Positions 50,584 through 53,220 of a stretch of DNA of 60,837 bases are shown here, in pieces. Position 1 is the first letter of the stretch. Each line of letters begins with the position of its first letter. The stretch lies in the NCBI GenBank assembly GCA_023258975.1, contig JAHFRD010000018.1, positions 1 through 60,837 of the forward strand, given 5' to 3'. The notes beneath the pieces are model-generated. The model searched no databases. It was not told the origin of the DNA and saw nothing but the letters and a program-made list of their open reading frames with translations. The stretch is from Hydrogenophilales bacterium (GTDB lineage: Bacteria > Pseudomonadota > Gammaproteobacteria > Burkholderiales > Thiobacillaceae). Both the position numbers and the translations under genes were made by a program.

Positions 50584-51912
50584 CTATGCCCGCAAATTTT
50601 TCATGGTGCCGGCGGCCAGCACCAGGTCTTCCCAGGCTTTGGCCTTGTCCGCCGGGCTGCGCAACAGATAGGCGGGATGATAGGTCACCACCAGGGGCAG
50701 GCCGCGATACTGGTGCACCCGCCCGCGCAACTTGCCGATGGGAGTATCGGTGCGCAGCAGGTTTTGCGCGGCGATGCGACCGACCGCGACGATGATTTTG
50801 GGTTGGATCAGATCGATTTGCCGTTCCAGATAGGGCAGACAGGCGGCGACTTCCTCCGGCCTCGGATCACGATTGCCGGGCGGGCGCGATTTCAGGACGT
50901 TGGCGATGTAGACGTTCTCGCCGCGCTTCAGCCGCAGGGCGCCGAGCATGGCGTCGAGCAACTTGCCGGCCTGGCCGACAAAGGGCTCGCCCTGGCGATC
51001 CTCGTCCGCCCCCGGTGCCTCGCCGATGAACAGCCAGTCGGCGTGGATGTCGCCCACGCCCGGAACGCCCTGGGTACGGGTCTTGTGCAGGTCGCAGAGG
51101 GTGCAGGATTTGATGGTGGCACGCAGGGTATCCCAATCCATAACGGAGACGTCGGCAACGGGCCGGCGAGACGCCGGCGCTACAGTGTCCGCGTCGTGAG
51201 GCGGAACCTGTAGCGCCGGCGTCTCGCCAGCGTCTTTCCAGCAACTTCCCCAACGAAAAGCGGTTTCCTCCGCGCACAGCCCCGCCTTGACCGGATTCCG
51301 CCGGACATAGGCGGCCAGTGCCTGCATTTCGTCATCGTCCCGCACCACCCGGTCGAAACTCTCGTGCTGCCACAGTGTCCCGGTTCGCCCCAACAAGTCA
51401 TTGATTTTGTGCGCGGCCCAGGATTTCACGCTGTGCAGGATCTCGCTCAACGCATGGTTGGCCAGCGGCGTCAGCAGCAGATGCACATGGTTGGGCATGA
51501 CCACGTATTCATGCAGGGTGTAGCGGCTGTCGGCATGGTTGGTCAGCGCCCGTTGCACGATCTCCGCCACCTCAGGCCGCGTGAGGAGACACTCTCCGGC
51601 ACCTTGATCGAGATAGCGTTCCGTATTCCGCGCCCGCTCGGTTTCCGGAGCCTCCGCCCAGGATTCCAGCACAGCCGCCGGCAGGCTATCGGCGAGGCGG
51701 AAGGTGACGAAGTAGGTCGCGCCTTCCGCCTTGGTGTGGGGGAGGTAACCCCGCGTATGGATGCCTTGACTCAGGTGCGCGCGTGAAGACGCCGGCGAGG
51801 GCGCCGGCGCTACATCCGTCTCACGCGCTGGCGAGGCGGGTGCGGCTCCCTTCAGCCGCCACACCGGAAGCAGCCCAAGTTCCCGGTGGCAATCTTCGCG
51901 CGAGAGCGTCAC
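50584..51912 (-). CDS. Family 4 uracil-DNA glycosylase with an in-frame RAYT transposase insertion
   Basis: This 442-codon ORF starts at a GTG overlapping the rimI stop. Residues 1-30 (MTLSREDCHRELGLLPVWRL) match the N-terminus of betaproteobacterial UDGs. Residues about 46-226 form a complete REP-associated tyrosine transposase (YVVMPNHVHLLL and the catalytic-Tyr segment AAYVRRNPVKAGL). Residues 257-442 are the glycosylase: GEAPGADEDRQGEP and the VTYHPAYLL motif. Type C repeats flank the RAYT and are translated (VAPAS, ETPAL). Fe-S ligands are C270, C273 and C358, but the third is Ser342 (VLKSRPPGNR) where family members usually have Cys. Whether the fusion is expressed or active is open. 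Confidence 0.88.
   Translation of the reverse strand: MTLSREDCHRELGLLPVWRLKGAAPASPARETDVAPAPSPASSRAHLSQGIHTRGYLPHTKAEGATYFVTFRLADSLPAAVLESWAEAPETERARNTERYLDQGAGECLLTRPEVAEIVQRALTNHADSRYTLHEYVVMPNHVHLLLTPLANHALSEILHSVKSWAAHKINDLLGRTGTLWQHESFDRVVRDDDEMQALAAYVRRNPVKAGLCAEETAFRWGSCWKDAGETPALQVPPHDADTVAPASRRPVADVSVMDWDTLRATIKSCTLCDLHKTRTQGVPGVGDIHADWLFIGEAPGADEDRQGEPFVGQAGKLLDAMLGALRLKRGENVYIANVLKSRPPGNRDPRPEEVAACLPYLERQIDLIQPKIIVAVGRIAAQNLLRTDTPIGKLRGRVHQYRGLPLVVTYHPAYLLRSPADKAKAWEDLVLAAGTMKNLRA
51162..51813 (-). mobile_element. RAYT (Y1 transposase) with flanking REP sequences inside the glycosylase gene
   Basis: The transposase body is at about 51235-51777 on the minus strand. It is bounded by type C repeats at 51791-51813, 51210-51231 and 51162-51183. 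The HxH metal site (PNHVHLLL) and the Tyr in AYVRRNP are intact. RAYTs are normally single-copy and move REP sequences. The whole segment keeps the host frame open. Confidence 0.85.
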
Positions 51913-52373
51913 AGGATCATCCGCATGACCAGCGCGTCTTCGCGTCCGTGGTCGGCCGGATAGTAGTCGCGGCGCAGGGCGATGCCGTCGAAGCCGATGC
52001 GTTCATACAGGTTCACGGCGCGGGTGTTGGAAGGGCGTACTTCCAGATAGAGCGCTTCGGTGGCGTGGTGGCGGGCGGTGTCGATGAGATGCTCGATCAG
52101 CGAGCGGCCGAATCCGCGCCCCTGCCAGGCCGGGGCGATGCAGCAGTTGAGGATGTGCCCCTCGCCCACCGCCATCATCATTACCCAGTAACCGGCCAAC
52201 GCGCCTTCCACTTCCCCCACCCAGGAGGAGTAGCCCGAATCCAGACAATCGCGGAAATTTCCCAGGGTCCAGGGATAGGGGTAGGACGCCCGTTCGATCT
52301 TGATTAGCGTCGCCAGGTCTTCCTCGCGCATCGGCCGGAAATCCATTTCCAGCGGTTTCAACAGCGCGTTCAT
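51909..52373 (-). CDS. rimI: Ribosomal protein S18-alanine N-acetyltransferase
   Basis: A 154-residue GNAT acetyltransferase. The family contains ERASYPYPWTLGNFRDCL near the N-terminus and the acetyl-CoA site CIAPAWQGRGFGRSLIEHLI. The C-terminal EVRPSNTRAVNLYERIGF motif is typical of RimI. It lies between tsaB and the glycosylase with ATGA-type overlaps on both sides, the usual tsaB-rimI order. RimI acetylates the N-terminal alanine of ribosomal protein S18. Confidence 0.93.
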   Translation of the reverse strand: MNALLKPLEMDFRPMREEDLATLIKIERASYPYPWTLGNFRDCLDSGYSSWVGEVEGALAGYWVMMMAVGEGHILNCCIAPAWQGRGFGRSLIEHLIDTARHHATEALYLEVRPSNTRAVNLYERIGFDGIALRRDYYPADHGREDALVMRMIL

Positions 52374-53107
52374 CGTTCACACACTTTGAGCGCGACCTTG
52401 TTGCGCACATACAGCGGTTCCGCCGTTTCCGGCGCGGCGAATTCTCCGGCGGCGTAACGCGGTGCGGCCAATCGGACGATGGCGCGGGCGTGTGGAATGG
52501 CGTCTGATACGGTGCATATAAGCCGTCCCTCCATGCGCTCGCGCAATGCCGGATAAGCGGCGAAACCGGGGCCGGCACCGATGCAGGCGGTACTTTCCGG
52601 GAACGGCGCGGCTTCTGGCGGGCAGACCACGGGGCCGGTGAGGGCACGCCAGCCTGGCCCTTCGCGCCGATACAACGCGGCGTAGACCTCGTTCATGCGC
52701 GCATCCAGGCAGGCCAGCACTTCGTGCACTCTCCCCGCGGGGGATCTCGACGCTCCCCTCTCCTGCGGGCGGGAGAGGGGCTGGGGGTGAGGGGAATTCC
52801 CCGCCTCCTCGGCCAGCGCCTCCAGGGTGGAAATGCCCAATACCGGCAGATCGGCGCCCAATGCCAGGCCCTGCGCCACGCCACAGGCGATGCGCAGGCC
52901 GGTGAAGGAGCCTGGCCCCATGCCATAGGCGAGACCATCGAGCTGGCGGTAACCGATACCGGCCTCGGCCAGCAGTTCGCCCAGCATGGGCGTGAGCAGT
53001 TCGGAATGTTTTTGCCCGGCATGCGCGGCGCGAAAGCGCACCTCGCCGTCGATGAACAACGCGGCGGAACACCATTCGCTGGCGGTATCGAAGGCGAGGA
53101 GCTTCAA
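52370..53107 (-). CDS. tsaB: tRNA threonylcarbamoyladenosine biosynthesis protein TsaB
   Basis: TsaB works with TsaD and TsaE to make t6A37 in tRNAs. The protein (245 residues from TTG 53107) has the ASKHA-type DTASEWCSAALF start and the YGMGPGSFTGLRIACGVAQGLAL core. The codon at 53107 is TTG; the frame upstream is repeat DNA. After ALAEEAG the protein reads NSPHPQPLSRPQERGASRSP, which is the translation of a type B palindromic repeat, before returning to HEVLACLDARMNEVY. The repeat keeps the frame, so the protein is probably longer than usual but intact. rimI overlaps its stop. Confidence 0.9.
   Translation of the reverse strand: MKLLAFDTASEWCSAALFIDGEVRFRAAHAGQKHSELLTPMLGELLAEAGIGYRQLDGLAYGMGPGSFTGLRIACGVAQGLALGADLPVLGISTLEALAEEAGNSPHPQPLSRPQERGASRSPAGRVHEVLACLDARMNEVYAALYRREGPGWRALTGPVVCPPEAAPFPESTACIGAGPGFAAYPALRERMEGRLICTVSDAIPHARAIVRLAAPRYAAGEFAAPETAEPLYVRNKVALKVCER
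52752..52793. repeat. Type B palindromic repeat inside tsaB
   Basis: CTCCCCTCTCCTGCGGGC and then GGGAGAGGGGCTGGGGGTGAGGG form a hairpin-prone unit. It matches 54607-54648 in inverted orientation and the pair at 45716-45872. It is in frame and translated. Confidence 0.88.
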
Positions 53108-53123
53108 ACGGCGCCCCCGAAAT

Positions 53124-53220
53124 GTAGCGCCGGCATCCCTGCCGGCTTTTCCAGGCATACAAAAGACGCCGGCAAGGCCCTGAAGGACACCGTCCCTGCG
53201 GGACATAATGCCGGCGCTAC
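53124..53220. repeat. Cluster of type C REP-like repeats upstream of tsaB
   Basis: GTAGCGCCGGCATCCCTGCC at 53124-53143 faces a copy ending ATGCCGGCGCTAC at 53208-53220, with a GACGCCGGCAAGG half-copy between. The cluster fills the 133-bp gap between DUF1015 and tsaB. Confidence 0.8.

Follow-up and report, generated by a model that had tools for sequence, protein, structure and literature searches.

The window, i.e., the whole stretch of 60,837 nucleotides analyzed here, carries on its minus strand (51912 down to 50584) a single frame of 442 codons without internal stop, in which a REP-associated tyrosine transposase (RAYT) separates the N-terminal peptide of a uracil-DNA glycosylase (UDG) from its family-4 catalytic core. 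This layout had been proposed in an earlier note, together with a GTG start overlapping rimI, and both points were confirmed, the overlap being 4 bp long. The features of the locus are as follows:

50584..51912, minus strand: entire UDG-RAYT-UDG fusion gene, with a GTG start, 442 codons and a stop (from the open reading frame and Pfam/NCBIfam profiles)
51835..51912, minus strand: UDG N-terminal peptide, aa 1-26, with the motif ELGLLPVW at aa 11-18
51769..51834, minus strand: linker 1, about aa 27-48, encoded in part by REP sequence and predicted to be disordered
51235..51768, minus strand: complete RAYT, about aa 49-226 (from profiles, the frames of standalone relatives, the structural model and the Foldseek match to 4er8)
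51481..51492, minus strand: HUH motif NHVH, aa 141-144, shared by all 17 RAYTs aligned
51307..51309, minus strand: Tyr202, putative catalytic residue (Y---N with Asn206), unchanged in all 17 RAYTs, its role being read from the motif
51145..51234, minus strand: linker 2, about aa 227-256, mostly derived from an inverted REP pair
51162..51231, no strand assigned: inverted REP pair, with arms at 51162-51195 and 51198-51231 (34 nt each, 88% complementary)
51800..51814, no strand assigned: REP core beyond the other side of the RAYT, one mismatch, also translated
50587..51144, minus strand: family-4 UDG catalytic core, aa 257-442, with GEAPGADED (297-305) and HPAYLLR (412-418)
51909..52373, minus strand: rimI, sharing 51909-51912 with the fusion gene

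Domains and conserved residues of the fusion protein

Pfam, standalone relatives and structure prediction bear out the further claim that the UDG frame holds a complete RAYT. Pfam recognizes a UDG domain (aa 284-430, 3e-38) and a Y1_Tnp domain (aa 127-205, 1.4e-7) in the fusion protein, and the NCBIfam profile UDG_fam4 (TIGR00758) matches aa 270-431 with 217 bits against a cut-off of 125.3. The NCBIfam profile REP_Tyr_transpos (NF047646, cut-off 80 bits) reaches 78.9 bits over aa 110-221 of the window protein, 82.1-97.1 bits in five other UDG-fused proteins, and 46.4 bits in the L155 frame described below. The limits of the RAYT (about aa 49-226) were set from the frames of standalone relatives and from an AlphaFold model. 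Two other identities were considered and rejected: an IS200/IS605 insertion sequence (NF033573 scores 23.2 vs. 55 bits, and this subfamily has one copy in the genome), and an intein (UDG and Y1_Tnp are the only Pfam matches at E ≤ 0.001, with no Hint or splicing domain among them).

The AlphaFold model, built from 35 rows (mean pLDDT 80.6, pTM 0.52), has confident RAYT and UDG domains and a pLDDT below 50 at residues 27-60 and 224-250, i.e., two folded domains are predicted, joined by disordered, largely REP-encoded linkers. A Foldseek search with this model returned family-4 UDGs as best matches (5e-20) and the RAYT-REP complex 4er8 at rank 40 (1.7e-6). The RAYT alone had no relative among PDB sequences at E ≤ 0.01, and a RAYT model from one sequence scored poorly (pLDDT 54) and was discarded.

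The RAYTs of 16 of the 17 UDG-fused loci (G457 was left out) were aligned with that of L155. The NHVH motif and the tyrosine are invariant across all 17 sequences, and the asparagine four residues further on is nearly so. In the E. coli TnpA-REP, the GTAG sequence is read by W94, Q95, E100 (or D), H101 (or R) and R104 (PMC6006769), for which the window protein has W181, Q182, D187, R188 and R191 at the same spacing, and the W, Q, D and last R of this set are likewise invariant (17 of 17). With GTAG-type residues, HUH motif and tyrosine all kept, the RAYT looks competent.

On the UDG side, G-E-x-P-G-x-x-E-D and HPAYLLR are invariant in 35 of 35 rows. Family-4 UDGs carry four Fe-S cysteines, the Cys of the KCRPP motif being one of these ligands. 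The window UDG has three of the four, with KSRPP (aa 341-345, 50878-50892) in place of KCRPP. This serine is found in 20 of 21 genus UDGs, fused or not, as well as in 12 of the remaining unfused rows, and the cysteine is present in the other seven fused rows; a loss caused by the fusion was rejected since unfused relatives have the same serine. The window genome also encodes a second UDG-superfamily gene. More broadly, UDG-superfamily matches number two in seven of the nine genomes of the fused main clade (four in G005, one in G009) and four in the fused G012; among the 13 unfused genus genomes there are three in 10, two in G014 and G019, and none in G013.

Occurrence, reading frame and translated REPs

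The fusion was found at the rimI-UDG locus of 17 genomes, i.e., in 10 of the 23 species of the genus, in six of the 10 genomes of a second family (f50), and at L039, from a further betaproteobacterium added from the best 80 of 511 contig matches. A whole-protein search of 41 genomes matched some part of the protein in 40. Within the genus, the whole fusion is present in the window's own genome (G000) and in G005, G008, G011, G012, G017, G018 and G020; its halves lie on two contigs in G006, and the first half only is seen, up to the contig end, in G009. Searching 117 family genomes with the RAYT alone recovered the same ten genus genomes plus G079, and at E ≤ 1e-20 there was one match in each fused genus genome (n = 10) and none in the other 13, of which G013 (58% complete, no UDG match) is classed as unfused from the RAYT search only. 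A sample drawn from the order (399 genomes) contained 10 with a match at E ≤ 1e-25, namely four of the genus and the six of f50, and all six f50 matches sit inside the UDG gene (G346 is without the gene start, and G457 ends at a contig end within the RAYT, its UDG core being unseen). The remaining f50 genomes have a UDG without RAYT (G285, G165 and G209) or no match (G375, 70% complete). Among the best 80 of the 511 contig matches, the other RAYT-covering ones trace back to genomes listed above, as shown by their contig range or by an identical sequence.

Directly upstream lies rimI, both in those fused loci with an assembled upstream side and in many unfused relatives, which identifies the site as the native UDG locus. 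UDG homologues with and without the insert, which the earlier note had thought worth searching for, both exist (e.g., 10 of 23 fused in the genus), and the idea it had also raised, that the RAYT region might be ancestral in UDG, is at odds with 13 of the 23 genus genomes, and with the other UDG loci read outside the fused groups, where the gene contains no RAYT. The window genome has three other, distant Y1 transposase genes, which might act on REPs as well, though distant RAYTs also occur in unfused genus genomes.

Repeats can misjoin or break assemblies, and the fused loci of G006, G009 and G457 do reach contig ends. An artefact of assembly, or one recent insertion confined to a single strain, is nevertheless extremely improbable against 17 loci from separate assemblies, at the same locus and with diverged sequences. 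An artefact was rejected on the same architecture and locus in the relatives' assemblies, a recurrence that also exceeds chance, and a single local insertion on the recurrence in other genomes and lineages.

Across the 17 fused loci, the junction from the N-terminus to the RAYT is open in all 16 assessable cases, and that from the RAYT to the UDG in 13 of 14, the exception being G403, where a frame break puts the RAYT and the UDG core in different frames. A stop or frameshift at the junctions, which the earlier note had named as counter-evidence, is absent from the window's fusion frame, as that note had it, and among the assessable junctions a frame break occurs in G403 only. Linker lengths vary almost exclusively by whole codons, and the 12 loci scored show 10 distinct lengths of the second linker, which consists largely of translated REPs (the pattern scan skipped this linker in G018, whose frame is nonetheless open). 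At the sequence level, the arrangement is conserved and, with 17 loci, not a one-off.

One gene could still give two products, through cleavage in the disordered linkers or re-initiation at the UDG core, with RAYT and UDG then working separately. The low pLDDT (< 50) of linker residues 27-60 and 224-250 would accommodate cleavage, and in G403, with its UDG core out of the RAYT frame, only separate synthesis is possible; the 13 of 14 open frames maintained despite many linker lengths favor read-through, and we consider two products unlikely.

The flanking REPs are themselves translated, in three copies as had been claimed: the cores at 51170-51184 and 51209-51223 are exact and sit within the 34-nt inverted pair behind the RAYT, and that at 51800-51814 has one mismatch. 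The 15-base REP core is stop-free in five of its six reading frames, so that REPs are easily read through. The same UDG linker is also variable among plain UDG orthologues. Among near relatives of L039, the UDG of L071 has a plain linker, those of L085 and L084 have translated REPs in it without a RAYT, and L039 itself has REPs and a RAYT adjoining one, a series that would fit either REPs arriving first and the RAYT later, or a RAYT lost and its REPs left behind. Separately, the linker of a RAYT-free f50 UDG (L168, from G285) apparently holds an in-frame palindrome, as judged by eye.

The RAYT of G079 (L155:1348-1902) lies in another host gene, continuous with the reading frame of a type I restriction R subunit (L155:1-2685), between the helicase and EcoEI_R_C regions. 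It is 45% identical over query aa 41-163, and its edges appear by eye to be REP-like translated peptides. The UDG gene is thus a favored home of such RAYTs, judging from the matches recovered, and not its sole one. Another kind of repeat is read in frame in the same operon as the fusion: tsaB (window 52370-53206) has, at about 52740-52795, a repeat-like segment, SPHPQPLSRPQERGAS, which is in G017 and absent from G020.

Selection, apparent exchange and linked REP populations

Evolutionarily, the dN/dS ratio of the RAYT (NG86) is 0.06-0.27 in 36 pairs of the genus and 0.06-0.19 in 10 pairs of f50, near the values of rimI and UDG, several of the dS values being above 1 and near saturation. By this measure, purifying selection acts on the RAYT, although such selection cannot tell host benefit from selfish maintenance.

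In a tree built from 110 UDG rows by a quick method (SH-aLRT), the main clade of the genus forms one group (98), f50 lies far off, and L039 nests (98) with the unfused L085, L071 and L084. As placed by this tree, at least three separate UDG lineages carry the fusion, so that the two enzymes seem to have been retained as a single protein and not brought together by one accident. A RAYT tree, for which 12 of 29 foreign loci were used (L173-L184, of which L173-L176 are standalone members of the subfamily from the class), did not reject a single clade of all fused RAYTs (AU p-value 0.37), and weakly rejected the genus main clade and G012 as one clade (p-value 0.025). The rows of G403 (L166 in the UDG tree, L171 in the RAYT tree) were not counted with the fused group, and the change counts are inflated accordingly. 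These tests fit one or several insertions.

Inside the genus, the RAYT and its flanks support conflicting groupings. The pair formed by G006 and G020, which rimI and UDG unite (74/86), is rejected by the RAYT DNA (p-value 5.6e-5), and rimI and UDG reject the G000-G005-G006 group (p-value 0.010), which the RAYT unites (75/86); three further groupings tested were not rejected (p-values 0.159 to 0.197). From this conflict, the RAYT segment appears to have been exchanged separately from its flanks, via recombination or transposition.

The window genome holds 393 sites of the REP core, vs. 29 for a reversed control pattern. The first REP pattern was derived from the window's own REP. Across the genus, TGTAGCGCCGGCGTC (up to 2 mismatches) has 66-697 sites in all 10 fused genomes (reversed-pattern controls 14-39; the weakest case is G008, with 66 vs. 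35), and 4-32 sites in all 13 unfused ones (controls 17-32). The REP variant changes with the RAYT lineage. In f50, GTAGCGCCGGCATC (up to 1 mismatch) has 13-97 sites in the six fused genomes (controls 1-12; G317 has 23 vs. 10) and 0-8 in the three unfused ones (controls 1-6), and G375, which has no fusion match, has 77 sites vs. 1. In the L039 group, GTAGCGCAGGCGCC has 67 sites in the fused G869 (control 5), and also 85 in G872 (control 14) and 41 in G870 (control 20), two genomes in which the RAYT search gave distant RAYTs only (25-30% identity); it lies under the control in G871 (13 vs. 23) and G873 (10 vs. 22). The fusion and its REPs are strongly linked in two families and imperfectly in the third (L039) group, and the link amounts to few independent contrasts because the fused genomes cluster on the tree. 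In G872, G870 and G375, either the REPs are currently independent of the fusion or the assemblies are incomplete.

A probable two-enzyme protein and comparison with known systems

Taken together, we favor, with a probability of about 0.68 and on comparative sequence evidence, the reading that this conserved two-enzyme protein serves these cells as their working GTAG-type RAYT. One protein would hold two intact enzymes, the family-4 UDG housing a GTAG-type RAYT in its flexible linker. The fused RAYT would propagate or process matching REPs, the UDG part would still remove uracil, and the arrangement would persist as a REP-flanked linker insert that can be read without damage to an expressed repair gene. 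The earlier note had offered two options, a RAYT landing in a linker that tolerates it, or a stable chimera under selection. Tolerance does hold, with REPs lacking a RAYT in L085 and L084, and a stable, long-kept chimera is favored by the 17 loci in at least three UDG lineages, the purifying selection on the RAYT and 13 of 14 open junctions.

The RAYT might also be a selfish passenger, useless to its host, whose frame-breaking copies harm UDG and vanish; selection would then act on UDG function alone, with the RAYT maintaining itself via exchange, so that this differs from the two-enzyme reading solely on host benefit. A linker that is variable and tolerates REPs without RAYT (L085, L084), a RAYT segment that moves separately from its flanks, and a related RAYT in frame in a type I restriction R subunit (L155) all agree with such a passenger. 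However, low dN/dS across divergent species and the occupation of the same gene in separate lineages exceed the needs of passive survival, and one paper regards RAYTs as vertically inherited, domesticated transposases (PMC8049555). We give the passenger slightly less than an even chance.

The two-enzyme protein may also be connected to replication through its N-terminal peptide. An N-terminal peptide weakly resembling that of DNA polymerase III psi (HolD) is common to rimI-adjacent UDGs (e.g., L109:2935-3012 and window:51835-51912). One motif search of the N-terminus gave 7 of 110 UDG loci, and another motif, also strict and written with HolD in view, is N-terminal in 60 of 110. A profile of 20 rows from these 60, searched against all PDB sequences, had six matches at E ≤ 10: the clamp-loader entry 3gli ranks first through its psi peptide (0.066) and full-length psi ranks fourth (0.24), the N-termini being matched to each other in both cases, with two xylanase sequences in between (0.089) and two unrelated proteins after (0.81 and 1.6), and the psi E-values are flattering because the 20 rows were chosen by the HolD-guided motif. 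In E. coli, holD overlaps rimI, and on 12 contigs rimI follows UDG as it follows holD there. Weak singly, these lines combined suggest that the UDG N-terminal peptide is a clamp-loader peptide. The available part of a paper on P. aeruginosa HolD (PMC8879598) mentions neither uracil nor rimI. For the superfamily to which this transposase belongs, targeting to the replication fork has been discussed elsewhere (PMC6006769). More weakly, we infer that the peptide could dock on the clamp loader like psi and bring the RAYT to single-stranded DNA at the fork. It is tempting to go further and speculate that an intragenic RAYT subfamily enters host genes between translated REPs and settled, in separate lineages, between the psi-like peptide and the UDG core, the host peptide carrying the RAYT to the fork, at which REP hairpins would be single-stranded, so that uracil repair and REP editing would form one replisome-borne machine with a swappable RAYT cassette; we regard this full scenario as rather unlikely.

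The function that maintains RAYTs in bacterial genomes is unknown (PMC8049555), and a RAYT joined to a repair enzyme whose substrate is known, and perhaps to a peptide that docks on the replisome, is a clue to their role. It also offers a one-gene test system in which REP handling and repair are separable by point mutations. Among the titles and abstract openings listed from an open-access library, none describes a UDG-RAYT fusion. A 2018 classification of TnpA-Y1 proteins ascribed a few unexpectedly long proteins per subclass to fusions or annotation errors and discarded them (PMC6006769), and the word "glycosylase" is absent from its main text. These proteins parallel the present fusion in being over-long, and surveys that discard over-long transposases would miss such fusions.

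Several known systems come close to the fusion. With RAYT/TnpA-REP proteins of the GTAG-REP type it shares the HUH motif, the Y---N motif, the GTAG-reading residues, flanking inverted REPs, a single copy of the subfamily per fused genome, genome-wide REPs and the fold of 4er8, but here the RAYT lacks its own start and stop, forms an internal domain of a host repair enzyme, and has flanking REPs that serve as translated linkers. With family-4 UDGs it shares the catalytic core, its motifs and a rimI-linked locus as in unfused relatives, and differs by a transposase of about 180 residues in the linker and by the Cys to Ser change in KCRPP, the latter also seen in unfused relatives. Rickettsia palindromic elements are likewise palindromic mobile repeats in frame inside host genes (PMC10969869); these are about 150 bp long, whereas here the transposase itself lies within the host protein, its flanking repeats acting as protein linkers, which extends the in-frame palindrome to a whole enzyme.
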